Assembly: GCF_013215705.1 (NCBI RefSeq)
Contig: NZ_JABSQR010000013.1
Coordinates: 1 to 64,000 of the forward strand
Reading direction: 5' to 3'
DNA length: 64,000 nucleotides
From: Moritella sp.
GTDB taxonomy: Bacteria; Pseudomonadota; Gammaproteobacteria; Enterobacterales; Moritellaceae
This document shows positions 3,999-28,973 of the stretch, piece after piece. How positions within the stretch are numbered: the first letter of the stretch is position 1; each line of letters opens with the position of its first letter. The notes under the pieces are model-generated. The model made no database searches, had not been told where the DNA came from, and worked only from the letters and a program-made list of their open reading frames with translations. The position numbers and the translations under genes were made by a program.

Positions 3999-4074
3999 TC
4001 TATCGTGCCACTATTTTAGTAAACCATGATATGGTTGCTAACCATATGTATTTGTTAATACCTGGAGTATAAAA

Positions 4075-5040
4075 GTGGAAAAGGTTAGGTATACCGTCAG
4101 TAATATTCTTCAGAATAAAACCAAGTTTTATTCTCTTACAATGCCAACAGATGTTTTATCTAAATGTTGCTTTGTTTCAAGTCGCGACGAAGATCCTATT
4201 ATGGGGTTTCAGCGTACCCTAGATGAAAAACGAGCTATGGAAATTGCCAATTATATTGATAATGAAGAAGGAACAATTCCATCTTCAATTATAATTTCAG
4301 CGCAAGATGTTGCTGATGTTGAAATTATTGGTAGAGGCCGAACTTTAGAATTTATGCCAGATCCAAAAGCTTTCCTTATTCTTGACGGTCAGCATCGCGT
4401 TTATGGTTTTTCTAAAGCTAAATCAATACTTCGCGTACCTGTGGTAATTTATGTTGGTTTAAGCAGGAAAGAAGAATCAAGATTATTCATAGATATTAAT
4501 TCAAAGCAAAAAGGTGTTCCTTCTGAGCTCTTACTTGATATTAAGCGAATGGCTGAATATGAAAATTCAACTGAAGAGTCATTACGTTCAATTTTTGACT
4601 TGTTTCACGATGATCCCAATAGTGCTCTATTAGGAAAATTGAGCCCTGCATCTAAGTCAAAAAATAAAATTAGTAGAGTTACATTTAACAGTTCTGTAAC
4701 TCCGGTTGCTCAATTTTTTGGGAATAGAGAAACAGAAGAGCTTTATGCCATTTTAAATTGTTACCTAAAGGCCTTTTTATATGGGTTCTTTAAGGAAAAT
4801 AATATTGAAGAACAATTGTGTAATTCTACTATTTTTAGAGCCTTATTTGCAGTATTTCCTGAAGTGGCCGCTAAATTAAAAGATCGTCATGGCCCTGATT
4901 ATACTGTTGATAATTACGATAGTGTTATGGCTGAAATGTTTAATAAAATTAACTTACAAAAAATTCGCAAGCCAGGTAGTTCTTATAAAGCAATTGCTAC
5001 ACACTTATCAAACTCGATGAAAAGTAACTTTACTCTATAG
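4075..5040 (+). CDS. DGQHR-domain protein (DndB-like)
   Basis: A 321-residue protein with the diagnostic LDGQHRVYGF block (about residues 103-112), followed by an FIDINSKQKGV segment (about 142-152). Both are characteristic of the DGQHR family, whose best-known member is DndB, the transcriptional/regulatory protein of phosphorothioate DNA modification. No dndA, dndC, dndD or dndE gene is nearby, so this is a stand-alone DGQHR protein, probably part of a two-gene conflict module with the HEPN-like gene 1 base downstream. The start is a GTG at 4075 preceded by CTGGAG at 4062-4067. It lies between A/B module copies and not directly after an intact attC. Confidence 0.75.
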   Translation: MEKVRYTVSNILQNKTKFYSLTMPTDVLSKCCFVSSRDEDPIMGFQRTLDEKRAMEIANYIDNEEGTIPSSIIISAQDVADVEIIGRGRTLEFMPDPKAFLILDGQHRVYGFSKAKSILRVPVVIYVGLSRKEESRLFIDINSKQKGVPSELLLDIKRMAEYENSTEESLRSIFDLFHDDPNSALLGKLSPASKSKNKISRVTFNSSVTPVAQFFGNRETEELYAILNCYLKAFLYGFFKENNIEEQLCNSTIFRALFAVFPEVAAKLKDRHGPDYTVDNYDSVMAEMFNKINLQKIRKPGSSYKAIATHLSNSMKSNFTL

Positions 5041-7541: not shown

Positions 7542-7545
7542 TTTA

Positions 7546-8109
7546 TCATGCTGCCAGCTCTACGATGTTTAACACTTTTGTTAACGCATTCACTTTTCCA
7601 AGCAATTGAACAGAGCGTTCTCGGGTTTCTAGATAGAATGGTTTGAACAGATCATTTTGTTTCGGAAAGCGTTGCATTAAATCTTTAAATTCCTCGACCT
7701 CGCTTAATGAGATAGCAAGTTCTGCTTCATATGTTTTCTTTTCTTTAGATAATTCATAGCGGAAATCAGTACTACTTTCGTCTTTTTCGCTACGTAATGA
7801 TTTTACTTTAGGTTGCTGTGTTACAGGTACGTCAGTAATGGATTTCATCACAAAATCAGCAGTAATAAATGTTTCTGATTTGGTGTATCTGCTCTTTTTT
7901 ACTTCCGAATGAGTATGCTTTATTAGTAATTTCAGCTTGGTTAGTTTACAAATTACACGATAAATGCATTTACGAGTTTCAGTCTTATCATTAAAAAACT
8001 CTGACTCGTACATGAGCGCGTCTCTTATTTCTGAAACTGTAAAATTATTTATATTTACTACTATCAATAAATTATATACATCTGGATGCAGTGCTATAGC
8101 TCTCGCCAT
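7546..8109 (-). CDS. Putative winged-helix protein upstream of helicase
   Basis: A 187-residue protein. The first ~85 residues read as a winged-helix fold: the helix FTVSEIRDALMYESEF, then the TRKCIYRVICKLTKLKLLIKH recognition-helix region, then a basic strand. The C-terminal half is a long charged helix (SKEKKTYEAELAISLSEVEEF) that could be coiled coil. It is the promoter-proximal gene of a two-gene operon with the SF2 helicase. I infer a DNA-binding specificity or accessory subunit, or a regulator. The start codon is 24 bases from the first of three palindromic operators. Confidence 0.5.
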   Translation of the reverse strand: MARAIALHPDVYNLLIVVNINNFTVSEIRDALMYESEFFNDKTETRKCIYRVICKLTKLKLLIKHTHSEVKKSRYTKSETFITADFVMKSITDVPVTQQPKVKSLRSEKDESSTDFRYELSKEKKTYEAELAISLSEVEEFKDLMQRFPKQNDLFKPFYLETRERSVQLLGKVNALTKVLNIVELAA

Positions 8110-8132
8110 TATTAAAATCTCAAAACTAAAAA

Positions 8133-8199
8133 CTTAGGATTGCTAAGTATACAGTAATCAGTAAAACTTAGACAATCTAAGCTATTCAGGATTACTAAG
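8133..8199. promoter_or_regulatory. Three repeated operators in divergent promoter
   Basis: Three 15-bp imperfect palindromes share the form CTTAGxxxxxCTAAG: CTTAGGATTGCTAAG (8133-8147), CTTAGACAATCTAAG (8167-8181) and TTCAGGATTACTAAG (8185-8199). They fill the gap between the leftward winged-helix/helicase operon and the rightward XRE-type regulator gene. The layout (a strong distal site plus two adjacent sites near the regulator) suggests that the 8211 product represses both promoters. This is inferred from position and repetition. Confidence 0.75.
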
Positions 8200-8210
8200 A
8201 TGAAACACCT

Positions 8211-8525
8211 GTGGTCAGAGAAAACCCAATACCAACTCGCCTTAAACAAGCGCGTAAAAAAGCTAAAATTACCCAAAAGGATTTGGGGATTAAAATAGGC
8301 ATGGAACCAAGTTCGGCAAGTGGACGCATGAACCACTACGAAAAAGGCCGTCATACTCCAGACATCACCGCTTTGCAACGCATGGCTGATGAGTTAGGTG
8401 TGCCACTTAATTACTTCTTTTGTGAAGATGACAGTACCGCTGAGCTAGTGTGCTTGATTGATAAATTATCAGAAGATGAGAAGATATTATTGATTAGTAA
8501 GTTAACTAGTAATGTGTCCGAATAG
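8211..8525 (+). CDS. XRE/Cro-CI family transcriptional regulator
   Basis: A 104-residue helix-turn-helix protein: residues about 8-62 form the XRE domain (RLKQARKKAKITQKDLGIKIG as helices 1-2, ASGRMNHYEKGRHTPDITALQRMADELGVPLNYFF as helices 3-5). The last 35 residues are an acidic helix, likely for dimerisation. The start is a GTG at 8211; an ATG at 8200 is out of frame. Three palindromes directly upstream are its probable operators, so it should autoregulate and also control the divergent helicase operon, like the small repressors that keep defence genes quiet. Confidence 0.85.
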   Translation: MVRENPIPTRLKQARKKAKITQKDLGIKIGMEPSSASGRMNHYEKGRHTPDITALQRMADELGVPLNYFFCEDDSTAELVCLIDKLSEDEKILLISKLTSNVSE

Positions 8526-11092: not shown

Positions 11093-11152
11093 ACAAATTT
11101 CCCCTCTTACTTTTAAATCACCTTCGTTCTCAAATACAAGCCAGTTAACAAG

Positions 11153-11207
11153 TACTTTAAACGGAACAAAAAAAGTTGGCTATTGTTCGCTTAAGTGTGC
11201 GTTATCT
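11153..11207 (+). repeat. Integron attC site 5
   Basis: GTTAACAAGTACTTTAAACGG and CGCTTAAGTGTGCGTTATC carry the standard left and right ends, with inner arms AGTTGGC and GTTCGC around a short centre. The left end is nearly identical to that of the attC at 12828. Confidence 0.8.
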
Positions 11208-11233
11208 CACTTATTTACATTGGAGACCAAATT

Positions 11234-11998
11234 TTGTCGGGACAATCAAAAGGTACAGTTTATGCTCATGCATATTTCTCTGCTTCAGTAGAAAGAACGT
11301 TACAAGCTGATAATTTCGGCGATATATTTGCAGGTTTAACTAGTGTTGCTTTGACTGCATTTATGGTTGAGAGCTATTTGAATTACCTTTGTGAAAAGCT
11401 ATGCGATTTTGAGTCCAGAGCAGATGCGTTTTTAGATGATAACAATCATTTAGAAATTGACAAAAAGCTTAGGGAGCTTCCAAAGAATGATCTATCTCTT
11501 CATGTTAATTTAGCTGAAAATTTAGGTTACAAACAACAAACAGAAACAATAATAAACTCACTTACTTCTTCTTTAAGAAAGGCAAACCGCGCAGAATTTA
11601 AACTTGATTTTAATAAAGGAATGTCATTTTACGAATTAGAAAAGAAGTATAAGTTATCAACTAAAAATAAGTTAAAAGCTTTATTAAAAGCCTCTAATGT
11701 AGAGCAACCTAAACGCGATAAATTTGTGCAACAGTTTACGCAACTATTTGATGCGAGAAATGCCCTCGCACATGGCAGAACCGAAAATGTTTCTGAATCT
11801 TTTACTAAAGAACTTACTAACGATATCTCTAAATCTGTTCCTGCAATAACTGCAAGTTGGCAAGAGAGCTGTTCAATTAAAAAAGCAAATGAAATGTATA
11901 GTTCATCGAAGGAACTTGTGTCGTTTTTTAATGAGACGTTCTTAAAAGAGTTCTCGCCATTAAGTAACTTAAGTTCACAAATATCAGCCGTGAGCTAA
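11234..11998 (+). CDS. HEPN-domain cassette protein (RNALAH motif)
   Basis: A 254-residue helical protein. I use the TTG at 11234, preceded by TTGGAG (11220-11225); the frame opens at 11195 only within the attC. Near the N-terminus AFMVESYLNYLCEKL resembles the first HEPN helix, and LFDARNALAHGRTE (about residues 187-200) contains R-N-A-L-A-H, a textbook HEPN RX4H catalytic motif. A stand-alone HEPN protein of this size is most likely an RNase toxin or anti-phage effector; no antitoxin such as MNT is adjacent. Its stop codon is followed by only the left half of an attC. Confidence 0.65.
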   Translation: MSGQSKGTVYAHAYFSASVERTLQADNFGDIFAGLTSVALTAFMVESYLNYLCEKLCDFESRADAFLDDNNHLEIDKKLRELPKNDLSLHVNLAENLGYKQQTETIINSLTSSLRKANRAEFKLDFNKGMSFYELEKKYKLSTKNKLKALLKASNVEQPKRDKFVQQFTQLFDARNALAHGRTENVSESFTKELTNDISKSVPAITASWQESCSIKKANEMYSSSKELVSFFNETFLKEFSPLSNLSSQISAVS

Positions 11999-12047: not shown

Positions 12048-12833
12048 TTGAGTGTAGGACAACAGAGTGGAATTGATACCACAAAAATAACAAAACCAAT
12101 TCAATTGCTGGCTGCCTGGTTGGTGGGATTGATTTTCGTCAACGGTATCTTTTTAACGACAGCAACTTCATTTGTAGAAACAGAGTGGTTAGCTGCTGTT
12201 TTAGTTATAGCCGCTGTTATAAACGTTCCTGTATTTTTGGTGTCAATATTTCTACTACAAACGAAATTCAGACCCGAGATGCAAGAGGACCATTATTACA
12301 ATGAATATATTAAAGATAAACTCGGGAGATTGAAATCAGAAAAGAAATTTTCGCCAGTAACTATTAATAACAATAACAATAACAATAATAATGATGAAGT
12401 TGTGAATGATTTTGAAGCCAAAGTAGATAACGAATGGGATGGAGTCAAATTATTATTTAACCCTCATTTAACTGGTTCAGATCTAGTGAAACAGTCTTTG
12501 CAATCAAATGACATACCAATTAATGCTGAGTTTGGTCATAAGGAATGGATTCCCGAGTTTGTTATTGGCATAGGTCGTTATTTAACTTATGAACAAATAG
12601 GAATGATTCTGAATGCTTTAAAAAACACTCCTGCGAATAGGGTTGGGTTTGTTAATGATGATGATGATATTTATGAATGGGATAGAACGGTACTTATTGG
12701 TTCCTACTACACGAATGCCCTTGATAAAACTTATTCAATCGATGCAGCTTTAGAAATTCATAAAAGTGTTGATGGTATAGCTCAGAAGTTCTACCAAAAA
12801 ATATTTGATAAACAACTTGATGAAGACGTTTAA
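12048..12833 (+). CDS. Two-TM cassette protein with poly-Asn linker
   Basis: A 261-residue protein starting at TTG 12048 (GGAG at 12036-12039). Two transmembrane helices lie at about residues 18-40 and 48-72, then a charged segment, then a run of nine Asn (about residues 103-111) encoded by AAT/AAC repeats, then a ~145-residue soluble domain with many aromatics and acidic residues (VNDDDDIYEWDRT). The 2TM-plus-cytosolic-domain layout recalls membrane effectors of anti-phage systems, but I recognise no sensor domain. The Asn run is a simple-sequence repeat likely to vary in length. A complete attC follows. Confidence 0.5.
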   Translation: MSVGQQSGIDTTKITKPIQLLAAWLVGLIFVNGIFLTTATSFVETEWLAAVLVIAAVINVPVFLVSIFLLQTKFRPEMQEDHYYNEYIKDKLGRLKSEKKFSPVTINNNNNNNNNDEVVNDFEAKVDNEWDGVKLLFNPHLTGSDLVKQSLQSNDIPINAEFGHKEWIPEFVIGIGRYLTYEQIGMILNALKNTPANRVGFVNDDDDIYEWDRTVLIGSYYTNALDKTYSIDAALEIHKSVDGIAQKFYQKIFDKQLDEDV

Positions 12834-12925
12834 CAAGTACTTTAAACGGAGTAAAACAGTTGGTTTTGTTTCGTTTCTAAACAAGTATAGCCAACCATTT
12901 TTGTCCGCTTAAGTGGGCGTTAATC
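12828..12925 (+). repeat. Integron attC site 6
   Basis: Inverse core GTTTAAC (12828-12834) and right core GTTAATC (12919-12925) bound 98 bp. Arms ACGGAGTAAAACAGTTGGTT and AGCCAACCATTTTTGTCCG pair with few mismatches. Very similar to the sites at 3599 and 18221. Confidence 0.9.
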
Positions 12926-13960: not shown

Positions 13961-14991
13961 TTATGCTGCGAGTAAAATAGGTTTATATTCAGTTTCATAT
14001 CGAAGCATTGCCCATGCAGTTCTAACAATTTTGTTGGCCAGTGCTATGCACGTTTTCTTGAAGCCAATCAGTTCAACGGTCTTGCGTAACCAAGCATCTT
14101 TTTGCGTTCTCGGTTTTTCTGGTAACCTTCCAAGACACGACATTGCGCCAAGATACAGCAGAGACCGTAATTCTTTTACCCCTCCACACTTATCAATACC
14201 AATCATGAACACCTTGCCACCCGAACTATGTTGCTTCGGCGTTAGTCCAACAAACGCGGAAGCTTGACGGCCATTTTTAAATTGCTTTCCATCTCCTAAC
14301 GTTGTGTAAAGCATCGCTGCAATTGTTTCCCCAACACCTTCAATTTTCATCAACCTTTTGCACGGTTCAATTTGGCGTGTTAAAGCATTTTTCTCTTTTT
14401 CAAAATCCTTCAACTCATTTTTAAGCAGCTTGTATTGCTCCCAAAGGATAGCCATCACACCGATGACATTGGCAGAAATATTTGTTTCTCCATCTAAAAC
14501 AGTTTGAACTGATGCTTTCAACCCTTTTTCACCCTTGGGATTAGCAATTCCGTAACCCAGGAGTGACCCTCTAATGTGCTGACCAAGTGACACTAAGTTT
14601 CGAGATAGGAAACGACGGCTGCTTTCCAAAGATTGCATAGCCTGCTGTTCTAGGGACTTCGGTGGGCTATATTTGATACCAATTTGAATAGGGCATTTGC
14701 AATAGCAAGTGCATCATTTCGATCTGTTTTGTGTCCTTCCAAGTACCCTTTAACTTTTTTGGGATTGATGATCCGTACTTCATGCCCAAATTGCTCAGCG
14801 TATCTTCCCCAGTAATGGCAACCGCAGCAGCCCTCTACAGCAACGATCGAAGGCTTTGCCTTGGCTAAAAATTCTTTTGTTTTCTGATGATTTAGGGCTT
14901 TGTTACTAAGTAATTCACCATCAATGCTTATGTAGCATACTTGCAGTACATTTTTAGCTAAATCGATCGCGATGATATTTTTGGTTAACAT
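13961..14991 (-). pseudogene. IS110/IS1111 transposase, frameshifted
   Basis: The N-terminal part (14650-14991) carries the RuvC-like DEDD domain: IAIDLAK (first Asp), AVEGCCG (Glu) and HKTDRNDA (Asp pair). The C-terminal part (13961-14638) has the Tnp domain with HSSGGK containing the candidate catalytic Ser, and MKIEGVGETIAAML, a helix-hairpin-helix-like block. Around 14670-14690 the reading frame changes: the first frame ends ...FKLVSNIAHRSP, whereas the natural continuation GIKYSPPKSLEQQAMQSL is in another frame. Joined, the product would be about 340 residues, normal for the family. A decayed copy is more likely than programmed frameshifting, because IS110 transposases are normally a single frame. 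Confidence 0.8.
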
Positions 14992-16677: not shown

Positions 16678-18216
16678 TTGAATTTAGCAATAATCATAGG
16701 TGTTGAAAAGTATAAGTCATCAAGCTTTGATGACTTATTAGCCTGTAAAAATGATGCAAAAGTTATTGGAGAAGTTCTTAATGATGTAAAAGAGATTAAA
16801 GAAACTCTTTTTATCAATAACAATGAAGCAGGCTATGAAGTAAAAAGAAAAATATCTGACTTAGTTGAGAAATATAAAGGAGAAGATATTGATGAACTTT
16901 TCTTTTACTTTTCTGGGCATGGAGACAGATATGATGATGATTTCTTTTATCTACTGTCAGATTTTGATCTAACAAAAAGAGAAAGTACAGGGCTAAGAAA
17001 TTCTGAAGTTGATGATTGGATTAAAACCTTATCTCCTAAGTTATGTGTGAAAATCGTAGACGCATGTTTTAGTGGGACACAATATATAAAAAGTGAATCA
17101 AATACTGAAAGCGAACTTAAAAAGTCGGCTCAAAAATATGGTTTAAACGATATATATTTTTGGTTTTCATCTAGGGAAAATCAAACATCATTCGCAGGTA
17201 AAGAGTTTAGCCGATTTACAGAAAGTATTCTGACAGGCATTACAGAGCATAGCGGTGATGTTAGATATAGAGAAATAATGGCTTATGTAGCAGATGATTT
17301 TTCTAATAAAGGAGATTCTAAACCAATTTTTGTAACTCAAGCTGATAATATTGAAAAGTTTGGGCATGTAACAACAGCTACGCATAAAATAATTTACGAT
17401 GCGTTTGGCTTAGATGACTCTGATATTGAATCTTCTGAAACCGTTCTACAAACATCCATGAACGATAGCGATGTTAATAAAGACGAAGCTATTCTACCTG
17501 AGAAGAAAGAACTTTCGGTTTTTGAGTTAATTAAGATTAAATCAGATGAGATTTGTTTTAATGAAGAGGATTTACTCAAATTTATAGAGTCCTTTAATAA
17601 AAATATATCGGAATGGGATGATGATCTTCAAAGTGTTTATGAAATTGAAACTGAATTTGATCTGAGAATATACCAAGTTCCCAATAGAGCGAAAATTGGG
17701 ACTTGGTTAGATAAAAACAAAAGAAAAAATTATTTTTCCGAACCTACATATGGTGAAAACACTTATAAAGTAGAGGAATATAAAGCGCTCCCTAAAAAGC
17801 CAATTAAAAACACCATGGCTCTTGCTAGAGATATGGGTCTATGGGGTGATGAGGATGATACCGAGTATAAACTAGAGAATGTTACCAAAACTCATAAATA
17901 TATTGATGGTTTTGACTATACGCACTATTCTGAAAATAGAATATCTAAAGTATCTTTCAAACCAAAAGTAGAATTAGCACCACCACTTTCATTACACATA
18001 GTTCCAATTTATTCCAATAAACATATGGTGTTTCATGTTGCTTATGAGGTATTAAAAAGGAATGATTGGAAAAGCTTCTCACAGCCTAAGTGTACCAGTT
18101 GGAAAATGATTCAAACTAATATTGATTCCATTGAGGCACCTGTTTCTGCGTCTGATAAAATTCAAACTGAAGTTAAGTTATGGATTGAAGGGTTGTTTAA
18201 AAATAGTGTTGAGTAA
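16678..18216 (+). CDS. Caspase-like (C14) peptidase
   Basis: A 512-residue protein starting at TTG 16678 with TGGAG at 16667-16671. Residues 1-220 are a caspase/metacaspase p20 domain: LAIIIGVEKY opens the first strand, FFYFSGHGD (about residues 77-85) carries the catalytic His and VKIVDACFSGT (about 122-132) the catalytic Cys. The remaining ~290 residues are acidic, have no membrane helix, and are unrecognised; they may sense a trigger or bind a partner. Stand-alone bacterial caspases act as death effectors in several anti-phage systems. Here the gene forms a single cassette between a B module and an attC, so it is mobile as one unit. Confidence 0.8.
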   Translation: MNLAIIIGVEKYKSSSFDDLLACKNDAKVIGEVLNDVKEIKETLFINNNEAGYEVKRKISDLVEKYKGEDIDELFFYFSGHGDRYDDDFFYLLSDFDLTKRESTGLRNSEVDDWIKTLSPKLCVKIVDACFSGTQYIKSESNTESELKKSAQKYGLNDIYFWFSSRENQTSFAGKEFSRFTESILTGITEHSGDVRYREIMAYVADDFSNKGDSKPIFVTQADNIEKFGHVTTATHKIIYDAFGLDDSDIESSETVLQTSMNDSDVNKDEAILPEKKELSVFELIKIKSDEICFNEEDLLKFIESFNKNISEWDDDLQSVYEIETEFDLRIYQVPNRAKIGTWLDKNKRKNYFSEPTYGENTYKVEEYKALPKKPIKNTMALARDMGLWGDEDDTEYKLENVTKTHKYIDGFDYTHYSENRISKVSFKPKVELAPPLSLHIVPIYSNKHMVFHVAYEVLKRNDWKSFSQPKCTSWKMIQTNIDSIEAPVSASDKIQTEVKLWIEGLFKNSVE

Positions 18217-18220
18217 AAAT

Positions 18221-18320
18221 TTCTAACAAATAGCTTAAACGGACAAAAAACAGCTGGCTTTTGCTCGTCCCTCGCTAACTCTAGCCAGCTGTTTTATTGC
18301 CGCTTAGCAAAGCGTTAATC
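18221..18320 (+). repeat. Integron attC site 7
   Basis: Left end TTCTAAC (18221-18227), right core GTTAATC (18314-18320). Inner arms CAGCTGGCT and AGCCAGCTG pair perfectly around a ~28-base centre, and AAACGGACAA/TTGCCGCTT form the outer part. This is the last attC in the window. Confidence 0.9.
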
Positions 18321-18480: not shown

Positions 18481-18559
18481 CAAAAATGTGAACACCAAAA
18501 AATCGTAAATTAAGGCGTTATGATTTAAGATTGGGTTTTCATTTTAATGAGTTATCAAT

Positions 18560-19462
18560 ATGTACCCTATAGATTACATTGAACCAGTATTTCGGCCACC
18601 AAGCGAATGGAAGAGCTTAATTCTACAAGTAACTAATGGTTGCTCATGGAATAAGTGTTCGTTCTGTTCGATGTATGAAGGCGATAATAAAAAATTCACC
18701 CCTAAGAAAATTGAACAGATTGAGAAAGAAATTATAACCGTAGCTCAGTCAGGCCTCCCCACTGGTCGTGTTTTTCTTGCCGATGGCGATGCAATGATGT
18801 TGCCATTTAAACGCCTAAAAGAAATTCTTGAATTGATTAAACTTCACTTACCTCAAGTTACTCGTGTTTCTAGCTATTGCTTACCTCGTAACTTAACGAA
18901 TAAAACGGTTGAGCAGCTAACCGAGCTAAGATCACTGGGTCTTAAACTCATGTACGTAGGTTGTGAGAGTGGTGATGATGAGGTTTTAAAACTGATCAAT
19001 AAAGGCGAAACATACCAAAGTTCAGTTGTAGCCCTTAACAAAATCAAACAAGCCGGTATGAAAAGTTCTGTTATGATTTTAAACGGTTTAGGTGGCCCGG
19101 AATTTTCTGAACAGCATGCAATTAACTCAGCTCGCTTGATGAATGAAACCCAGCCAGATTACTTATCTACTTTGGTTGTAAGCTTTCCGTTCGGTGAAGA
19201 ACGATTTGCTGAAAATTTCTTAAAAGAAAATCGACAACCTTACCGCCAGTTACGCCAGCAAGAGTTGTTTAAAGAAATGGAAATACTTTTAACTAATCTG
19301 GAACTGGAAAAAACAATATTTCGTTCTGATCACGCTTCAAATTACTTGGTCTTAAAAGGCACTTTGGGACAGGATAAAGCACAGTTACTTGCAAAGGTTC
19401 AACTAGCGCAGCAACAACCGGGATCTATACCTTTACGCCAAGAGTGGCAGCGAGGACTGTGA
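18560..19462 (+). CDS. Radical SAM protein, chimeric at element boundary
   Basis: A 300-residue radical SAM enzyme. The cluster-binding region NGCSWNKCSFCSMYEG (about residues 27-42) has three Cys (C-x4-C-x2-C as read here), and VGCESGDDEVL (about 133-143) and MILNGLGG are typical later motifs. Substrate unknown. The gene is uninterrupted, but a second, diverged copy of its last 165 codons lies at 28476-28973, at the far end of the integrative element. I infer that codons up to about 131 are native and the rest came with the element, so insertion rebuilt a full-length gene. The short spacing from repeats upstream and the lack of an obvious Shine-Dalgarno make the start less certain. Confidence 0.8.
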   Translation: MYPIDYIEPVFRPPSEWKSLILQVTNGCSWNKCSFCSMYEGDNKKFTPKKIEQIEKEIITVAQSGLPTGRVFLADGDAMMLPFKRLKEILELIKLHLPQVTRVSSYCLPRNLTNKTVEQLTELRSLGLKLMYVGCESGDDEVLKLINKGETYQSSVVALNKIKQAGMKSSVMILNGLGGPEFSEQHAINSARLMNETQPDYLSTLVVSFPFGEERFAENFLKENRQPYRQLRQQELFKEMEILLTNLELEKTIFRSDHASNYLVLKGTLGQDKAQLLAKVQLAQQQPGSIPLRQEWQRGL

Positions 19463-19836
19463 CAAATAACGTGACAATATAATATTAATGATCCAAAACA
19501 TAAAAAATGTGATCTACATTCATTCATGAGGTTACCTAGCAAGTGGCCACTTATCATGTTAATAATTAATGTTTGAATTAATAGGCTAGCCGCGTACTTA
19601 TTTTTTATATTTAAAATAAGCACCTTGTTTCGCCTTTGGATCTAGATACGGCTCAGCAGTGAGTCGCATTTACCGCATACTATTACATTGTAATTCGCTG
19701 CGCGAAGCAGCGCCGCCATAGGCAACGACTTCCACTTTATCATCAGTTGGCGGCTTACATGCTCGCACACTCGCATTTTCATATTCAGCCTGCACTTACT
19801 GCTCTCTGACGTTTAAATCGAGTACGTAAGCAGACA
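19463..19836. other. Left terminal non-coding part of the element
   Basis: 374 bp without a gene. It contains a GC-rich hairpin CGCTGC-GCGAA-GCAGCG at 19696-19712, which may act in termination of the leftward operon or at the element end, and several short AT palindromes near 19555-19580 (TTAATAATTAA). Confidence 0.4.
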
Positions 19837-22137
19837 TCATTTTATTTCATCAAAAGATCTATCAACGCTAAACCCTGTCTGTATAGTTTTCCATTTGGGA
19901 TTTGCTTCTATCGCAGCATTAAATGCTTTTTTATCACCGACAAAAACAACGGTCTTTTTGGCGCGGGTCAATGCGGTGTACAACAAACTGCGCTCTAACA
20001 GATTCGACTTGGTGACGGCAATAATAACGCATTCAGCAGCACTGCCTTGGAAGCTATGTACGGTCAGTGCATAGCCAAGCATGATTCCGAGCTTAGCGAT
20101 AGCTTCGTTATCCAGTATACGTTGCTCTTCGCCGAACTTAAAAGTGTACGGCACTGTGGCAGAGAGCAGCTTGCCGAGACTACCATTGAACAGATCAAAG
20201 CCATTTCCGCCGACATCAGTCACATTTTTTCTGACAATAACAGGATCATTCTCATTGAGCCCCCAAGCTTTTAATGGCGGTGTTTTGTCTGTTGTCAGCT
20301 GTGATTGAAAATAGCTGTTGATATGATGAATAGACTGCACTATCGGTCCATAGGCGTTCGCACTTTTGCGATGCGTAGTGATCACCTGTGTTTTTTCTAA
20401 TCCAAGTTTATTAGCGACCTCAAAAATGACTTTCGCTAAGGAATGCGGATCGGTTCTATCGATAGTCGTTGGCAAGAAAAACACCCCATGTTGAGGGGCT
20501 GGAGCAGCTAAATCAAACGTAATCAGTTCAGGATCAACGCCTTGGCTAATACTGTCAGCAATCGCTGGTATACCCGTAGCAGCTGCGCTGCGATGGGCTT
20601 TGGTTAACTTGGCAATCGGCACGTGCTTGCTGTTGCATAATAAGTGAAATACTAATCCAGCACCTATGGGGGGAATTTGGTTCGGATCGCCGACCATCAG
20701 AATGCGGGCTGTTTCGGGCAATAGACGCAACAAACGATTCATTAGGGAAAGATCTACCATTGATGTTTCATCAATAATGATTAAACAGTCGGCAGGAAAC
20801 TCTTCTGGTTCACGATAAGGATTATTTTCTTTAGCTTCTTCCGCATTTTCGAACGGGAGTATATACCAATGAATTGTGCGTGATAGACAATCGATATCAT
20901 GATTTTCATTGTAACCGCGCATGACATCGGCAGCTTGACCAGAGAGGGCCATTTGAAACACTCGAATGTTTAGTGCCTGAGCTAGTCTTACCACACTTGA
21001 AATTACAGTTGTTTTACCCGTGCCAGCTCCACCAGTGATAACAGAAAGCTGCTGTTGAAATGGTAATTTGATCGCGTTTTTTTGCTCATCTGTTAATTCG
21101 AATTTGGTATTTGGCTTGCCCTTTTTCTTTGGGTTCTCAGCTATCGCGTAGACATTCTCTGCGTTACCAACCAGAAGATTGTCAAAAATACTGTCAACGC
21201 CATGTTTAATCATGTTAACAAAACGTTTTTCAAGCGTCGCTTCTGCATAAGCGACAGGTCGTGACTGTAACAAGCCCTCCGGGTTCTCCTGTAACGCGCC
21301 TGAGGTTAGTGTAAGGTCGATTGCTTGCTCTGCGACTGAACTATCGTTAAAATGGCGTTCAAGCGCACTTTGTAGCGTTTCACGCTCGATTGCAGTATGG
21401 CCATACTTGTCCAGCCGATAATTTAGAACAAAATCTACCGCGCCTTGTAGCCTACGTGGATCTTCAGCGGGATACTCCATCGCATTCGCCATTTTTTCAC
21501 AGCTATTAAATAACGATGTTGTGTTGCGATCATATGCTAAAATTTTGTAGCAATCGGTGTGCAGTACCTCAGGCAATGTTTCGCCATATTGGCGGATCAG
21601 GCGATTGCTCAGTCGTTTGCCGATTTGATGTTTTGCTAGTAATTTGATTGCTTCTAGCTCGCCGCGCAGCACTGCCCAGCTCCTAAAAACCAACTCAATG
21701 TTGTGAGTCAGGCGTCTGACTGCCAGTACTCGTATGCCATCGTGATCTTCCTTATCAATGAGTTGTCCCAGCTGATCTGGCCCTTTTGCTGCTTCGATTG
21801 CACTAAGCCATGTTTTTTCACCAATCCGCGTTGCCCCTTCACCCACCCGCAGTTGCGGGTGACGCACAATGTATTGCTTTAGACGCTCTCCCTCAACCTC
21901 GATAGGTTCGCCATGGCTTGCAATAATTTGGTTGATGTAGGATGGGTTGGTATCCCATTCGCCAGTGAAACGCCAATGTTCCCCTGATTGTGCAGGTCGT
22001 GCTAGCACATGTGCACGAGCGACAACTGAGTGTTGTACGCCGTTATACCAGCCATGGATGATTTGCGAACCACGGTTGCCAGGGTTTTGGCTCGTGATCA
22101 TTAATTCAATGTTGAATGGCTCAGGGTTGAGTCTCAT
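19837..22137 (-). CDS. RecD2-like SF1B DNA helicase
   Basis: A 766-residue ATPase. The N-terminal ~340 residues match RecD2 organisation, with an HhH-like segment (QIGKRLSNRLIRQYGETL). The helicase core has Walker A TGGAGTGKTT (about residue 370), Walker B IIIDETSMVD (about 455), GDPNQIPPIG (motif III), and late motifs TVHSFQGSAAE and YTALTRAKK. RecD2 enzymes unwind DNA 5' to 3'. The start overlaps the stop of the coiled-coil gene by 4 bases (ATGA type), so it belongs to the recombinase operon. It may assist processing or replication of the excised circle, or be cargo. The length is normal for RecD2. Confidence 0.8.
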   Translation of the reverse strand: MRLNPEPFNIELMITSQNPGNRGSQIIHGWYNGVQHSVVARAHVLARPAQSGEHWRFTGEWDTNPSYINQIIASHGEPIEVEGERLKQYIVRHPQLRVGEGATRIGEKTWLSAIEAAKGPDQLGQLIDKEDHDGIRVLAVRRLTHNIELVFRSWAVLRGELEAIKLLAKHQIGKRLSNRLIRQYGETLPEVLHTDCYKILAYDRNTTSLFNSCEKMANAMEYPAEDPRRLQGAVDFVLNYRLDKYGHTAIERETLQSALERHFNDSSVAEQAIDLTLTSGALQENPEGLLQSRPVAYAEATLEKRFVNMIKHGVDSIFDNLLVGNAENVYAIAENPKKKGKPNTKFELTDEQKNAIKLPFQQQLSVITGGAGTGKTTVISSVVRLAQALNIRVFQMALSGQAADVMRGYNENHDIDCLSRTIHWYILPFENAEEAKENNPYREPEEFPADCLIIIDETSMVDLSLMNRLLRLLPETARILMVGDPNQIPPIGAGLVFHLLCNSKHVPIAKLTKAHRSAAATGIPAIADSISQGVDPELITFDLAAPAPQHGVFFLPTTIDRTDPHSLAKVIFEVANKLGLEKTQVITTHRKSANAYGPIVQSIHHINSYFQSQLTTDKTPPLKAWGLNENDPVIVRKNVTDVGGNGFDLFNGSLGKLLSATVPYTFKFGEEQRILDNEAIAKLGIMLGYALTVHSFQGSAAECVIIAVTKSNLLERSLLYTALTRAKKTVVFVGDKKAFNAAIEANPKWKTIQTGFSVDRSFDEIK

Positions 22138-22697
22138 CCAAACACTCGTTTGAGCGATTTACGCTCTTGCTGATCGCCTTTAATGACACGTTTTTCAGCA
22201 TCTCTTGTCCGGATTACCGCAACGGTAAGCTTTGCTGTTAATGTAGTTATCTCTCCAGCTTGGCGTTGATTTTCATCGGTCAGAGCAGCAATTTTATTTA
22301 ATGCCTCTTTTAGCTTGTTATCTATATCGCTGGTACTACGTCGAGCATTATCAATACTTGACTGGAGGTGCTCACGAACCGTTTGTGTTTCATCTTTTTC
22401 ATCGGGATTAGACAGATCCTCGATACTTAATGCTTTAATCGCTGCATCAAGCAATTCACGAGCGTAAACACGCTTAAAAACTTGCTTGCCTTGAATGACT
22501 TTTGCAAGCCGTGCTAAATGGCTGAGGTTTGGCATCGCATCGCCGTTATCGTTAACACTATACGCGGGTAGCGGCTCCTTTTGTTCAGCGTAATGATGAA
22601 ACAGAGCTGTCAGCTTTTGCTTGTTATCCCAGTCGATTTCGATGCTTGATAAGCCAACTTGATCAAGCTCTGCATTTGTTAATTTTTTTTCAGCCAT
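22134..22697 (-). CDS. Coiled-coil protein of the integrative element
   Basis: A 187-residue protein, unrecognised. Residues about 100-175 form a long heptad-rich coiled coil (IDNARRSTSDIDNKLKEAL, ALTDENQRQAGEITTLTAKL) ending in a basic tail (KRVIKGDQQERKSLKRVFG). It starts 9 bases after the preceding small gene and overlaps the helicase gene, so it is expressed with the recombinases. It could be a DNA-bridging or partner protein; this is inference. Confidence 0.5.
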   Translation of the reverse strand: MAEKKLTNAELDQVGLSSIEIDWDNKQKLTALFHHYAEQKEPLPAYSVNDNGDAMPNLSHLARLAKVIQGKQVFKRVYARELLDAAIKALSIEDLSNPDEKDETQTVREHLQSSIDNARRSTSDIDNKLKEALNKIAALTDENQRQAGEITTLTAKLTVAVIRTRDAEKRVIKGDQQERKSLKRVFG

Positions 22698-22706
22698 GAC
22701 AGTCTC

Positions 22707-23135
22707 CTAAAATGGCACATCTTCCATTGGCATAAGAATATTCCGAATTAGCTCCTCAATTTTAACGGCCGATTGAGACTCCACGGTCTTAATGATTATA
22801 TCCAGCGCGGCGGTATTTGCACTTAGCTGCTTGGTGAGTTCGCTGTTCTGTGCAATGAGTTTTTGGTTGCGACCTTTGTAATACTCGACTGTACCGTATT
22901 TAGGTTCGTCTTTATCCATGTCGCTGTCAGACATTTGCAGAAAACGATACTCGGCTATCATGTCAGCCCGTGATGTTAGCGTGCTTAACTTACCTGTGAT
23001 CACGCCTTTAGCTATGAGCCTTTCATGTAATGTGACCGCTGAAATCGGGGCTTTCTCGATCCCCTGTGTTTGCATGATGTTTAACTCAGCCTCTATGGCT
23101 TTATCGAGTTTGATTGAACGAGCATTCTTAGCCAT
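22707..23135 (-). CDS. Small accessory protein, Srap-like position
   Basis: A 142-residue protein with a basic N-terminus and a likely helix-turn-helix-like region (APISAVTLHERLIAKGVITGKLSTLTSR, about residues 31-58), then a helical C-terminus (NQKLIAQNSELTKQLSANTAAL) that may be coiled coil. It overlaps the end of the IntB-like gene by 8 bases. The fourth gene of SE elements (srap) encodes a DNA-binding accessory of recombination; the name here follows position and size. It also resembles in outline the TnpC proteins of Tn554-type elements. Confidence 0.5.
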   Translation of the reverse strand: MAKNARSIKLDKAIEAELNIMQTQGIEKAPISAVTLHERLIAKGVITGKLSTLTSRADMIAEYRFLQMSDSDMDKDEPKYGTVEYYKGRNQKLIAQNSELTKQLSANTAALDIIIKTVESQSAVKIEELIRNILMPMEDVPF

Positions 23136-25551
23136 TCTTCACCTCTTCTTTCAATTTACGTTGATCTTGCGCAAAATTCTCGACTACGGTCTTTTTAGGT
23201 CCAGTCATATTTAGTCGCTTGGTCGTTTCAAAGACGCGGATAGGGATAAAACCACTAAAGTTTTCCGCTTTGCAAAGAACGATGTCCATCTGCGCTAAGT
23301 TGTGTTTTTCTATTTCAAAAGCTTCGCGTTCACGGCGAGATTTTAGCTTGCCTGATTGCGCTAATCGCGACATTTTATCGACATTGAGCGACAGGTTTTG
23401 ATGGGTCGATTGGATGCTATCTAGCTCTCCGGGGCGACCGGTAATGGTTAGATGAAAACAGCCCTCACCATCGAGGCAGCGCAGTTGTTTGTCACAGCCA
23501 TGAAGTGCCAGATTACGGGTGCAACCGCCATTAATGACAATATGAAAATTGCGCCCATGAACTTCAATAAACTCTTTGGCTGCTTGCAGGCCATCTTTTT
23601 GGCGAATTTCGTTAAAGTTATTCTGCAACTCACCCAATAGATTGTCCTGTTCAAGCGCTTCTTGCATAAATTCGACATGCTCAGCCGGTTTATTAAATGC
23701 ATGAGCGTCTTGTTGTACTGCAAGTTTTGTTGGTGTTGCCCCTATTGGTGCCACCCCCAGTTCTGCCAATAAATTGTCTTCAGGCTCGGGGGGAGCAACA
23801 ATTTCATTGGTCTGTTGTGCACGCACAGCCCTCTGGCGCATGCTCTCGGTGGATGTGCCCTGATATTTTGTCTTATCTTTCAAGCTCAGATGTTGATAAG
23901 CCCGGTTTTGTTCAATATCGCGACGACCGACGATAAGCGCCTGTTGGTGCTCTGCTACGTCAGCCAAGGCTAAAAAGGTATTTAATTGATGGCGAGGCAT
24001 ATGCGACTCAATCTTTATATTCGAGCCATCGTCTTCTTTTAGACCATAGCGACTAAAAATCGAGGCAAGGGGAGAGGTATTCTTGCGCAACAAGCCAAAA
24101 AAAATCGCCATAGATGAAGCGTTAAAAATCTCTGGGTACAGATGTGAAACGGTAGACTTGTCCGTAAGCGATGCCAATGCGCCACTCGGAGCAATGCAGA
24201 GCAACTCTGATTTTTTGATGGTAATGGTTTTCTTTCGCTTTCCATTGCCACCCATTTCGAAGCTAATTGATGTATAGTGATTATCTCCCTTCGACTGTTG
24301 ATAATAGCGATTCATGTCAGCGACGCGAAAAAGTTTTAGCAATGGCATATTCTGGAGTCTGCGCGTTATAGTAATTCTGGCCTGATCGACAATCGATCCG
24401 ACTGATAAGACCCCGGCTTTTTTTAACCGGCTAGTAAAATTTGTAATAACATTTTCATTTGGCTCTTTCACGTAGTTGACAAAGTGCTCATTAATGTCCC
24501 TAAAGGTCATTGTTTTGCTTTCCCATCTTATGGGCGCAGTCGGATTCTGTTCGAGCCATTTTAACTGCTCTCGACACGTTGCTGTCTGCTTATTGATAAA
24601 TTCGAATGCAGCGATGACTAGCGGGGCGCTGGTAGGATCTAACCATTTGTATGCGGCGATATGGCCTTTCTCGGGATAATAATGGATCCCCCAAATTAGT
24701 TGTGGTTCGAGTTCAGGTTTTCCATTGTCGTTCAGCACAACTTTGCCATCTTCATCTCGTTTCTCGACAAAAATCGGCTTACCTGTGGTTTCATTGATTT
24801 CAGCCACACTGATCAAGGCATCATGACGAACTCGCAATAGCTCGCCGATGCGAAAACCGGTCACCATCAAAATATGATAAAGGCGGAGAGCGACTTGCTC
24901 CCAGCTGTTGCTAGCATTGAGAGTTAACCAAGCGAGCGAATGAAGTGCTTTCATCGAGAGCAGCTTATCCTCACCGTCGCGCTCATTATCGTCAATCGAT
25001 TGCGCTTTTTTACGCCGTTGATTCAGCGCTTTCTGCTCAGTATTCGGTCTCTGTTTATGTGTATGGGTAAAAGTGATGCCAACGTGAATAATAGCCATCG
25101 CCTTGAGCTGCATTGTTTTTTTCAAACAGGAATTTAATAATTTGTATATGGTCATATAGCCGCTTGCAATCAGGTTTGTTTCTAGCTGCTCTAACACTGC
25201 ATCATCGAGCAGCCGTGGTTCGGCTGCGCCCTTTACGTGTAGTAGTGCCTGATGCAGATATTTCATGTCCTTAATATTTCTTTGAAGGGATGCAAATACC
25301 ATCTTGTGGACATTCATTGTGGTGACCGCTTTACACCAGTTGATATAATTTCTGTTATTGATGACGGAAGCGTTTATGTGTTTACTTTTTAATATTTTTG
25401 TAAAATGTAACGAAGCTGTTGGACTATTTCCGCTAAAGTCGCCTTCGGATGTCCAGATATCAGCGTCCCACGATTGCGCCGTGATTAGTGTCGCATAATG
25501 TTCTTTCGCCTGTTCAATGAACGCATTGAACGCATCAATATTGCTACGCAT
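23128..25551 (-). CDS. Large tyrosine recombinase, IntB-like
   Basis: An 807-residue recombinase, about twice the usual size. The catalytic domain shows box I Arg in VTGFRIGELLRVR (about residues 230-242), HMPRHQLN as HxxR (about 535), GRRDIEQ in place of the usual LGH, and the candidate nucleophile in NRAYQHLS (about 565). The ~240-residue C-terminal extension includes a Cys cluster, NGGCTRNLALHGC...RCLDGEGC (about 690-715), likely a zinc knuckle. It overlaps both neighbours by 8 bases, so the recombinase genes are translationally coupled. I take it as the IntB of an SE-type element. Confidence 0.75.
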   Translation of the reverse strand: MRSNIDAFNAFIEQAKEHYATLITAQSWDADIWTSEGDFSGNSPTASLHFTKILKSKHINASVINNRNYINWCKAVTTMNVHKMVFASLQRNIKDMKYLHQALLHVKGAAEPRLLDDAVLEQLETNLIASGYMTIYKLLNSCLKKTMQLKAMAIIHVGITFTHTHKQRPNTEQKALNQRRKKAQSIDDNERDGEDKLLSMKALHSLAWLTLNASNSWEQVALRLYHILMVTGFRIGELLRVRHDALISVAEINETTGKPIFVEKRDEDGKVVLNDNGKPELEPQLIWGIHYYPEKGHIAAYKWLDPTSAPLVIAAFEFINKQTATCREQLKWLEQNPTAPIRWESKTMTFRDINEHFVNYVKEPNENVITNFTSRLKKAGVLSVGSIVDQARITITRRLQNMPLLKLFRVADMNRYYQQSKGDNHYTSISFEMGGNGKRKKTITIKKSELLCIAPSGALASLTDKSTVSHLYPEIFNASSMAIFFGLLRKNTSPLASIFSRYGLKEDDGSNIKIESHMPRHQLNTFLALADVAEHQQALIVGRRDIEQNRAYQHLSLKDKTKYQGTSTESMRQRAVRAQQTNEIVAPPEPEDNLLAELGVAPIGATPTKLAVQQDAHAFNKPAEHVEFMQEALEQDNLLGELQNNFNEIRQKDGLQAAKEFIEVHGRNFHIVINGGCTRNLALHGCDKQLRCLDGEGCFHLTITGRPGELDSIQSTHQNLSLNVDKMSRLAQSGKLKSRREREAFEIEKHNLAQMDIVLCKAENFSGFIPIRVFETTKRLNMTGPKKTVVENFAQDQRKLKEEVKNG

Positions 25552-27040
25552 GTTGGCCTCCTTGACAGTTTCTGCATCGTGAAATCACGGCTTTCACTTG
25601 CTCCATGGTGCCTTCTAGCTGGGTCATAGCTGGATTCATTCCTGATTGATGGGTGCTATCTGAAATGGCAATGATTTTTGAGGCCTCAAACCGCAATGCC
25701 TTTAGCACCGAATTATGATGGCCATCTTCAAAGGGATGAAAGTCTTGGCAGCCATAGCAATTGTAAACTGGCACGTATTCACAGTCGGTAGCATCGCAGC
25801 CACCAATTCCTGTGGCCAGTTCATCACCGATGCGACCCAAAACTTCTTTGTCTTGCCAGTCGTCATCCAGGGCAAGATCTCCGGTCAATAAAGCTACCAT
25901 CGCCCCGTATGTGCCATTTCGACCCAGTGCTTTCTCACGCAATGCACTAATTGAAGGGCAGGCCGCAATATAGTATTTTGCTGCTAGAAGCGTGCTGTGT
26001 CCGAGCATATAGGCAATTTCTGATGCCGAGCTACCAGCCATGACCATGCGATGCGCCATATTATGACGAAAATCATAAGGCGTTTTGTGGGCATTTTCAG
26101 CCCCCCAACGAGCCAGTGTATTATTTATGCTCCGAGTCCCACGGATTTTCCTCCAATCAGAGCCATTTTCATTCTGTAGTAATTGCAATGATTGACTATT
26201 TTGTCGTGCAATGAGTGCTTGTATGGCTCTGCCCAGTTCAGGGCTAATCGCTAATTTATCGGTTCCTTTTTTATGTTCAGAAGGCTTGCCTTTTTTAGCC
26301 CAAGGTCGCAGTAATGAGAAGTAGTTGCCGACTGACTGAAAACTATCATTAAATAATCGAAACAACTGGATTGGACGTAAGCCTAATTCATAACAGAGTC
26401 TCAGGACAATAAAGTCACGTAGTTCGGTGTAGTTTAAGCGCGTCATGAATTGTGTATCATGGCTTGAATGAGTACGAATAAATTGTTCTTCTAGGGGGCT
26501 GAGTCGCACCTCCATGTCGTAATAGCCCCCGACGTTGACACTGGCTTCAGGCGCTTGTTGTTCGAGATCAAAAAGATCTTCAATATCCGTGCCGGGCGCA
26601 CCATGACTGATCAGGTAATTTGTTAGTCGCTTGATGATAGCAAAATCAGTTCGGTAGTAACCGCTCTTTGAATTGCGAGATAATTCCATTTTTTCATAGA
26701 GTTTGGGTAGTGTTAAATCATCAATCGTCCAAGCTCGTCTCTCAATCATTTTAAAATTTTGAACGCTAACAGCTATCGAATAACTCGATAGAAACTTAAC
26801 TATCAGCCATTTTACAATAGGTTGTATTTGTTCATCAACGCGACCAAAATTCATTGTATAAGGCAATCCACCTTCCCGAATAGCCCAGACATCTTCACTG
26901 GTGTCCAAATACGCGGTATCACCATGGCTCGCGGCGTGAAAATGAATATGCCGCTTATAGCGCAATTCTGATGCAAATGCAGCCCACTCAGCTGCCGTGG
27001 CATCAAACTTCCTGTTTTTATCAAATTTAACTGCTAACAT
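25544..27040 (-). CDS. Tyrosine-recombinase-fold protein, Tfp-like
   Basis: A 498-residue protein. YELGLRPIQLFRL (about residues 217-229) supplies the box I Arg, but the normal HxLRH is TPYDFRHN, so the first His of HxxR is replaced by Tyr; MLGHSTLLAAKYYIA (about 356-370) keeps the LGH and a Tyr. The C-terminus has two Cys groups, CDATDCEYVPVYNCYGCQDF and CRNCQGG, likely zinc sites. The altered HxxR and its position between two recombinases fit the tyrosine-recombinase-fold protein of SE elements, thought to assist rather than catalyse. It overlaps its neighbours by 7-8 bases. Confidence 0.7.
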   Translation of the reverse strand: MLAVKFDKNRKFDATAAEWAAFASELRYKRHIHFHAASHGDTAYLDTSEDVWAIREGGLPYTMNFGRVDEQIQPIVKWLIVKFLSSYSIAVSVQNFKMIERRAWTIDDLTLPKLYEKMELSRNSKSGYYRTDFAIIKRLTNYLISHGAPGTDIEDLFDLEQQAPEASVNVGGYYDMEVRLSPLEEQFIRTHSSHDTQFMTRLNYTELRDFIVLRLCYELGLRPIQLFRLFNDSFQSVGNYFSLLRPWAKKGKPSEHKKGTDKLAISPELGRAIQALIARQNSQSLQLLQNENGSDWRKIRGTRSINNTLARWGAENAHKTPYDFRHNMAHRMVMAGSSASEIAYMLGHSTLLAAKYYIAACPSISALREKALGRNGTYGAMVALLTGDLALDDDWQDKEVLGRIGDELATGIGGCDATDCEYVPVYNCYGCQDFHPFEDGHHNSVLKALRFEASKIIAISDSTHQSGMNPAMTQLEGTMEQVKAVISRCRNCQGGQHA

Positions 27041-28359
27041 TGATCTTTTCCTTGTAAAACATGACGCAGGTTGGCAGCATTTGCCTTGTCGGCCAAGAAC
27101 CGACGACCATAGTGATCGGGCATCTCACTCTTGATTGACCATCCGCCATTGACTCGAAGTAGATCTTTGGCATCGGTTATTGACATCTTTTGTTCGTCCA
27201 CTAAGTGATAGAGTTGTGAAACAGCCCAAGTATGTCGAAGTTTATGCGGGTGACATGACGTCATATATTCCATTGATTTGAGATCGGCAATATCTGAGAA
27301 GTGTTGATGCAATGCTTTGGTGAGTCGTTCAAATATTTTGTTAAGCATGCGTAGGGTCAGTGGTTTTGGAGACTGTGTTGACAAAAACAGGATCGAGCTA
27401 TCACAGTCTTCATGTTCTTCAGAGCCATCACTCTTTGTAATAAGTTTTAAACGAAGCTTATTTACATAGAAGCAGAGATAGTCATAGTGATCTTTCGTTA
27501 TTTTCAGGGTGCGATGAGAAGTCTCGGTTTTTATAGAGCCTTCAACATTTTCTTCATCATCACAGTTGGTCACAGTAATGTAATAACTTGTCACTCCGTT
27601 AAGGTTATGGATCGACGGTTTAAATGAATCAGTCTCAAGCAGGTTTATTTCTCCTCTGCGCAGACCGTATTCGAGCGCAAGAGTACAGATCAAATAATTT
27701 CGAAAGCTCACTCTTAAACTTGAAAATGGATTTAATTTATTAGGTTTTGCGGTGGTGGTCGGGCGAATAATCTTTAAGAATGCGGCACACTGGAACAGGG
27801 TCAAACTTTTATACTCTTCTTGAATAGCAGTAGCACTACGCTTTGATCCCGATGCAGTGAGCTCTTGTTGCTTGTCTCGGAGTAAAAAGCTAATCTTTGT
27901 CTGCTCATGTCCGATATATTTTGGCACAAAAGTATTGTTGTATTTTGTTGTAGTGTATCGGTTATTAAGATAGCGAAGAAATTGGAAAACATCGCTGATA
28001 CGAAGTCTACTCGTAGATACTGCAATCGCATTAGCATTAGTGCCAAATGAGACAATGTTCCCCCCTTTTTGCCCCACATCCAGATATGATGAAAAGCCAT
28101 CGAGCTCACTGATCACACCTCGCATGCCATTGCGTTCGAAAAAGAAATCGAACGAATCATTGTGTTTACGCTGAATATATTCGTAAAACTGACAGATTGC
28201 AGTCATGTGACGATGCTGAGTCGAAGATGCCCTTTTATTTAGTCTGAGGCTAGAGTAAATCATGGCATACAATGGCGTTAAGCAAGTGTCATAATCGAAG
28301 ATTGTCCAGCATTGCCTGTCAAAATATTCAGATTTATAGCTAATCAAATTATATTGCAT
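27034..28359 (-). CDS. Tyrosine recombinase, IntA-like
   Basis: A 441-residue recombinase and first gene of the operon. The catalytic set looks complete: box I Arg in LEYGLRRGEINLL (about residues 226-238), the Lys region SIKTETSHRTLKI, HxxR in HPHKLRHTWAVS (about 370), NGGWSIKSEM with Trp at the fifth position and the nucleophile Tyr in DHYGRRF (about 418). The N-terminal SAM-like core-binding domain precedes it. It starts 117 bases from the right boundary of the element, the usual place for an integrase near its attachment site. Confidence 0.8.
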   Translation of the reverse strand: MQYNLISYKSEYFDRQCWTIFDYDTCLTPLYAMIYSSLRLNKRASSTQHRHMTAICQFYEYIQRKHNDSFDFFFERNGMRGVISELDGFSSYLDVGQKGGNIVSFGTNANAIAVSTSRLRISDVFQFLRYLNNRYTTTKYNNTFVPKYIGHEQTKISFLLRDKQQELTASGSKRSATAIQEEYKSLTLFQCAAFLKIIRPTTTAKPNKLNPFSSLRVSFRNYLICTLALEYGLRRGEINLLETDSFKPSIHNLNGVTSYYITVTNCDDEENVEGSIKTETSHRTLKITKDHYDYLCFYVNKLRLKLITKSDGSEEHEDCDSSILFLSTQSPKPLTLRMLNKIFERLTKALHQHFSDIADLKSMEYMTSCHPHKLRHTWAVSQLYHLVDEQKMSITDAKDLLRVNGGWSIKSEMPDHYGRRFLADKANAANLRHVLQGKDQC

Positions 28360-28475
28360 TGCATTGACGATCCTTGCTAAATATTATGTACTAAACATAG
28401 GTTCTCTGCTTGTTTATGCCAATGTAAAAATGTAATACATCTTAACTTTGTGAACTAAAAAACGGGTTCCTCCCC

Positions 28476-28973
28476 TATGTCGGTTGTGAAAGTGGTGATG
28501 ATGAAGTATTAGCGTTAGTTGAGAAAGGCGAAACTTACGCTTCACAACTCGATGCGTTATACAAACTTAAAGGCGCAGGCATTAAAACCTCGGTGATGAT
28601 ATTAAATGGCTTAGGTGGCACCGAGTTTACTGAGCAGCATGCATTAAATTCAGCCCGCTTAATGAACGAAGCACAGCCTGATTATTTGTCCACATTAGTC
28701 GTGTCTTTTCCATTAGGACAAGCTAAGTTTGCTAAGAATTTTGTCAATGGTTTCCAGTTACCTGATCAGCATGGGTTATTTTTGGAAATGCAAATGTTGT
28801 TAGAAAATCTAGACCTGAAGCATACCGTATTCAGATCTGACCATGCTTCTAACTACTTGTCTTTGAAAGGGACGTTAGGGCAAGATAAAGCACAATTATT
28901 AGCGCAAGTACGTGGGGCAATTGAAACCCCAGAACAAAGCAATCTGCGTAAAGAATGGCAGCGCGGGTTATAA
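28476..28973 (+). pseudogene. Displaced 3' end of the radical SAM gene
   Basis: Reads in one frame from 28476 (YVGCESGDDEVLALVEKGE...) to the stop at 28973 (...LRKEWQRGL), 165 codons that align throughout with codons 132-300 of the intact gene at 18560, with many substitutions. The 5' part and start are missing. It is what remains of the host gene's original 3' half beyond the inserted element. The internal ATG at 28593 could start a short product but has no sensible role. Confidence 0.85.

Follow-up and report, generated by a model that had tools for sequence, protein, structure and literature searches.

Integrative elements usually limit the damage they cause by targeting gene ends or tRNA genes, or by donating a new tail to the gene that they enter. 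The island described here instead splits a radical SAM gene in the middle and brings a complete foreign substitute with it. It lies in a stretch of 64,000 nucleotides from Moritella sp. (RefSeq assembly GCF_013215705.1, contig NZ_JABSQR010000013.1, positions 1 to 64,000), referred to below as the window.

In organization, the island resembles the GInts, genomic islands with the genes ginABCD that make up the Tn6571 and Tn6488 groups of the Tn554 family (PMC5385486). The catalytic domain of phage integrases is recognizable in GinA and GinB, and GinC is usually annotated as a hypothetical protein. In the GInts studied, the first catalytic arginine is absent from GinC, which is a reported trait and not a definition. 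All four genes are needed for excision and integration, a circular form occurs, and direct imperfect repeats of 10 to 17 nt flank the islands (PMC5385486). In what it does to its target, the island recalls the recA mobile element (RME) of Vibrio cholerae S24. This island of approximately 33 kb splits recA and carries a divergent, complete recA whose ability to rescue has been tested (PMC4405046). Another way to make good such a break is found in Vibrio splendidus, where an element in mutS gives the gene that it interrupts a new promoter and a new start (PMC5296598).

With a probability of about 0.6, the Moritella locus is a case in which a GInt-type island interrupts a conserved gene in the middle of its reading frame and makes up for the damage through a divergent, complete replacement. 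The boundaries of the island, its recombinase module, the split resident gene, the intact foreign gene in its cargo, and the presence of the same replacement in a second, unrelated element are matters of direct observation.

Island Boundaries and the Split Gene

Where does the island begin and end? The answer comes from the pieces of host gene on either side of it. The contig opens, at a break in the assembly, with the end of an insertion sequence (IS; 1 to 77); the identical 77 bp stand at the ends of two other contigs of the window's own genome (G000), C4 and C7, and a 92% version stands at C5. Positions 78 to 104 (+ strand) then hold codons 122 to 130 of the resident radical SAM gene, the host side of the junction distal to ginA, and 78 to 106 match the uninterrupted gene of a congener, G003, at 28 of 29 positions. 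The resident gene resumes with codons 131 to 295 at 28476 to 28970, forming an orphaned 3' remnant that runs through the stop codon to 28973 (+ strand) and agrees with the G003 gene at 478/495 nt and 161/165 residues. Joined together, 78 to 104 and 28476 to 28700 align with that gene without a gap (247/252; 98%). These matches therefore place the element at 105 to 28475 (28,371 bp), and its precise removal restores the resident gene as it stands in G003. The insertion point is codon 130/131, in phase 0, with 2 bp of ambiguity due to a TA common to both ends, and the empty-site sequence is TTTAGGCATTGTTTATGTCGG. To the right of the remnant, the chromosome is collinear.

The end distal to the recombinases (105 to 905) is AT rich, with a G+C content of 31.6% compared with 39.5% in the host flank. 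A search of the island ends for direct att repeats of at least 80% over 10 to 17 nt found none, though weaker repeats may be present, and no second host junction was found inside the island. Left ends at 18953 or within 19462 to 19837 were considered and rejected: there is no host junction at either place, and homology to the cargo gene of a sister species, G008, spans 18498 to 19487.

An earlier note on this DNA had the element enter the radical SAM gene at this very codon, and that is borne out by the junction at 28475/28476. It had bounded the element at 18953 to 28473, which gets the right junction but not the left one; the latter lies 18.8 kb further left, at 104/105. The comparison with uninterrupted congeners that the note proposed also settles which piece is native: it is the right remnant that agrees with their 3' halves, which makes this piece the resident gene. 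A search among them for an uninterrupted gene with a 3' half like that of the left copy found none.

A Complete, Foreign Gene as the Presumed Replacement

The presumed replacement copy (18560 to 19462, + strand) is a complete, foreign radical SAM ortholog of 300 aa. It is 95% identical at the amino acid level to a copy carried as cargo in G008, the complete genome of the sister species, and 84% identical to the gene of G025. How far does its foreign character extend? For residues 1 to 38, 39 to 130, and 131 to 300, identity is 100, 89, and 96% to the G008 cargo copy and 92, 82, and 83% to G025, but only 78, 60, and 69% to the resident gene of G003. Its alignment with the orphaned remnant starts at 18953/28476, with approximately 70% protein identity (115/165). 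In a tree of 54 rows, it pairs with the G008 cargo copy (support, 100/99) within a group (96/91) that includes Psychrobium/Colwellia-type genes, while the right remnant falls in the group of congeners (100/100). The Colwelliaceae orthologs themselves occupy ordinary, varied chromosomal neighborhoods.

The two cargo copies share 87.8% DNA identity over 990 bp, including approximately 60 bp upstream of the start. By eye, this upstream block is also recognizable in G115 but not before the resident gene. The cargo gene is a full-length ortholog from the Colwellia/Psychrobium lineage with its own upstream region. Between the copies of G000 and G008, the ratio of nonsynonymous to synonymous substitution (dN/dS) is approximately 0.05 (dN, 0.028; dS, 0.60); both are under purifying selection.

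Is this gene ordinary mobile cargo? Orthologs of at least 60% identity occur in 0 of 72,556 plasmid records and 1 of 50,697 phage records; the gene is therefore not usual mobile cargo, and the idea that it is generic to plasmids or phages finds no support in these counts. The phage in question is Pseudomonas phage Y13 (OQ572414.1, positions 4000 to 4878, an unannotated record; H106), which has a full-length ortholog of 61% identity. Within the order, 52 of 395 genomes (counted from the table) carry an ortholog-grade copy. Two clear ortholog-grade copies are found only in G000 and G008 among the sampled genomes, and in both the resident gene is split. In G358, a single complete copy is accompanied by a fragment at the edge of a contig.

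A Second, Unrelated Element in the Same Gene

The sister species owes its cargo copy to a different element, here called element X, whose insertion point in the radical SAM gene is codon 36/37. In G008, resident codons 1 to 36 are followed by approximately 20 kb of element X (L021, 6064, to L022, ~11290) and then by resident codons 37 onward. Element X encodes tyrosine recombinases of 463 aa and 1,401 aa (PF13009, with 82-aa repeats at the N terminus), is bounded by short inverted repeats (TAGTTGGGG...), and in G008 carries a CBASS-like set (DncV-like cyclase, patatin, ThiF, and JAB proteins) together with an OLD-like ATPase. Its recombinases have no similarity to the trio of the window island that hhalign can detect. 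Its cargo in G008 includes the full radical SAM gene that is 95% identical to the window copy, in the opposite orientation. A second cargo module is common to the two elements (6165 to 8525 in the window; 89.7% nt identity over 2,347 bp): a ResIII-type helicase (−), a 187-aa protein (−), and a helix-turn-helix protein (+). A hotspot common to both elements is probably where the replacement gene passed from one to the other.

Element X has also visited the window's own genome. The native 5' end of the resident gene, 36 codons long, lies on contig C18 (from C18:94910) and is cut there by element X (L023, 11018 to 13243). Only the left end of the element was found in this genome, at the end of C18. 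Resident codons 37 to 121 were not found in the host assembly, in a search without a positive control; they may have been deleted or may lie within an assembly gap.

Both elements strike conserved coding motifs: one insertion point is just after the CX4CX2C cysteines, and the other is at YVGCESGDD. At both points, the bases of the cargo copy differ from those of the resident gene.

The Recombination Module

The genes that would move the island sit next to the right junction, all on the minus strand. From 28359 to 22707, each of the four overlaps the next by a few bases or nearly so. The ginA position is taken by a tyrosine recombinase of 441 aa (27034 to 28359; PF00589, E value 2.1e-6) and the ginB position by another of 498 aa (25544 to 27040; PF00589, E value 1.8e-8). 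The ginC-position protein, a large recombinase of 807 aa (23128 to 25551), has no family match, but R234, H517, R520, and Y552 are conserved, and R234 is invariant along with the other three in an alignment of five relatives. The small protein in the ginD position has 142 aa (22707 to 23135).

The same four-gene order recurs in four related loci, where the recombinases are 22 to 33% identical and the small protein, where found, is 34 to 41% identical to the fourth gene. All three recombinases match, at an hhalign probability of 99.9%, the corresponding trio of the Pseudomonas aeruginosa plasmid NZ_CP095921, which is not an authenticated GInt. Closer relatives of the trio did not turn up in a pattern-limited DNA scan of genome contigs with the second recombinase, the relatives elsewhere being those at 22 to 33%.

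To what class does the island belong? The earlier note read the gene order as intA-tfp-intB-srap and assigned it to the strand-biased circularizing elements (SEs). That assignment fails: neither blastp nor hhalign found similarity to the SE core of pMT14 (hhalign probability, ≤2.8%). Terminal inverted repeats of 13 to 19 bp were likewise not found at the island ends, the best inverted match being 10/13 at nonequivalent distances from the ends. SE membership is ruled out as far as a single SE core allows, and order and sequence fit a GInt-type trio. The island is GInt type by organization, judged from its genes and layout, and the term is limited in this way because the third recombinase keeps the first catalytic arginine and no direct att repeat of at least 80% was found at the ends.

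How the Locus May Have Arisen

The favored explanation runs as follows. The 28.4-kb GInt-type island integrated site specifically between codons 130 and 131 and thereby split the chromosomal radical SAM gene. Its cargo ortholog would be expressed and restore the lost function, and the different DNA at both insertion points would spare that copy from the recombinases. Loss of the island would then cost the cell the gene, because the cargo copy is the only complete copy found. In its favor are the restored gene on exact removal of 105 to 28475, the full length and wholly foreign character of the cargo gene, the coincidence of two clear copies with a split resident gene in G000 and G008, the purifying selection on the cargo copies and their retained upstream block, the rarity of orthologs on plasmids and phages, the differing bases at the two insertion points, and the precedent of the RME. 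Several observations weigh against this explanation. In G014, from another family (L106, ~1667), the resident gene is truncated exactly at the codon used by element X and has no 5' part; a second or replacement copy was looked for there and not found, and the gene may therefore be dispensable. Element X has cut the resident gene of G000 as well, and either element may have been the first to break it. Finally, other cargo that is 90% identical occurs in both G000 and G008, which are therefore not fully independent cases. A rather unlikely reading, in which the island is a real GInt-type element but the ortholog came aboard accidentally, or was captured through homology at a hotspot common to the elements, and has no compensating role, draws on the cargo modules common to both elements, the mosaic of attC-like sites and IS110-family open reading frames (ORFs) in the cargo, and the truncated gene with which G014 lives. 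It sits poorly with the dN/dS of the two cargo copies and with the near absence of orthologs from plasmids and phages otherwise. Nor does simple homologous exchange with the remnants explain why the cargo gene occupies a different position in each element and faces opposite ways with respect to those remnants.

Could the 28.4 kb instead have been built up by several events in or next to the gene, such as a smaller recombinase element, insertion sequences, cassette capture, and deletions? The mosaic cargo and the lack of a clear direct repeat at the ends speak for such a composite, but it is improbable given that excising exactly 105 to 28475 restores the gene without a gap, as expected of one integration, that an AT-rich end away from the recombinases agrees with the layout published for GInts (PMC5385486), and that the interior yielded no further host junction. 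Hardly credible is the model of the earlier note, an SE-type element at 18953 to 28473 that donates a 3' half and leaves a working chimera. Homologous stretches do flank the recombinase cassette, the left gene is intact, and it aligns with the right remnant from 18953/28476. Both copies of the 3' half and the four-gene module are indeed real, and the note was right to see the left 3' half as foreign and as brought by the element (residues 131 to 300 stand far closer to the G008 cargo copy than to the G003 resident gene). The left copy, however, is a whole gene inside the element. Its 5' half, which the note took to be native, is as foreign as its 3' half, and the real native 5' end is on C18. 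Together with the tree, the host join at 78 to 104, and the lack of similarity to the SE core, this leaves a gene brought in whole and no donated C terminus. Gene halves on either side of recombinase genes are no proof of a donated tail. The preferred explanation, compensation by a complete replacement, can also be taken further, if tentatively. Unrelated recombinase classes may circulate one shared, divergent "rescue" ortholog of a common target, cutting at its most conserved codons while the rescue copy, being different at both cut sites, escapes; insertion would then cost the cell next to nothing and the island would be difficult to shed, as in a natural version of a cleave-and-rescue system.

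Other Cargo

The remaining cargo is varied. Next to the recombination module lie a 187-aa protein with no family match (22134 to 22697, − strand) and a RecD2-like superfamily 1 helicase of 766 aa (19837 to 22137, − strand; TIGR01448, E value 6.8e-93, below the curated cutoff). Two ORFs at 13961 to 14991 (− strand) match an IS110-family transposase (PF02371). A caspase-like protein (Peptidase_C14, EACC1-associated type; 16678 to 18216, + strand) is followed by an attC-like site and is one of the defense-like matches in the cargo, the others being DndB/DpdB-like (4075 to 5040, +) and HEPN-like (11195 to 11998, +).

The attC-like sites all lie on the plus strand, at 3600 to 3693, 11144 to 11206, 12829 to 12924, and 18222 to 18319, each behind a cargo gene or gap. 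Three are complete, with hairpin z-scores of −3.7, −1.9, and −4.3, and one is shortened. Together they resemble an array of integron cassettes that lies within the island and lacks an integrase. An Rfam scan of positions 1 to 30000 gave no match.

Comparison with Known Systems

How does the locus compare with the systems introduced above? Like a GInt, it has at one end an operon that encodes two integrases, a large divergent recombinase, and a small protein; its cargo is large and varied, its other end is AT rich, and its insertion is site specific and in a protein-coding gene. It differs in its mid-gene rather than gene-end insertion, in the complete ortholog of the split gene that it carries, in the first catalytic arginine of its third recombinase, and in having no clear direct att repeat. 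With SEs it has in common a site preference, the presence of several tyrosine recombinases, and a terminal set of four core genes. Their core, however, is IntA, Tfp, IntB, and Srap, whereas the second protein in the window is a Phage_integrase match and not Tfp; SEs further feature imperfect terminal inverted repeats of 13 to 19 bp, C and C', and strand-biased circularization without an empty site. The mutS element, too, interrupts a housekeeping gene within a conserved protein motif and makes up for the break, but it does so with new start signals and no separate full copy.

The RME comes closest in effect, with a conserved gene split in the middle and a complete divergent copy aboard. This is a functional analogy only, as the RME targets recA, uses phage integrase and XerS-like recombinases, and has 9-bp terminal inverted repeats. 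The principle itself, in which an island breaks a gene and brings along a complete copy that has diverged from it, is thus already known. In the literature, of which coverage was incomplete, no split-plus-replacement case was found for a GInt or for this gene; as far as can be told, the GInt-type carrier, the mid-gene target, and the one replacement common to two unrelated elements are new. If the copy does rescue function, mobile DNA can swap a core gene for a distant ortholog and become hard to lose. The locus also extends the precedent of the recA island to an element of the GInt type, and to a gene for which no part in repair is known.

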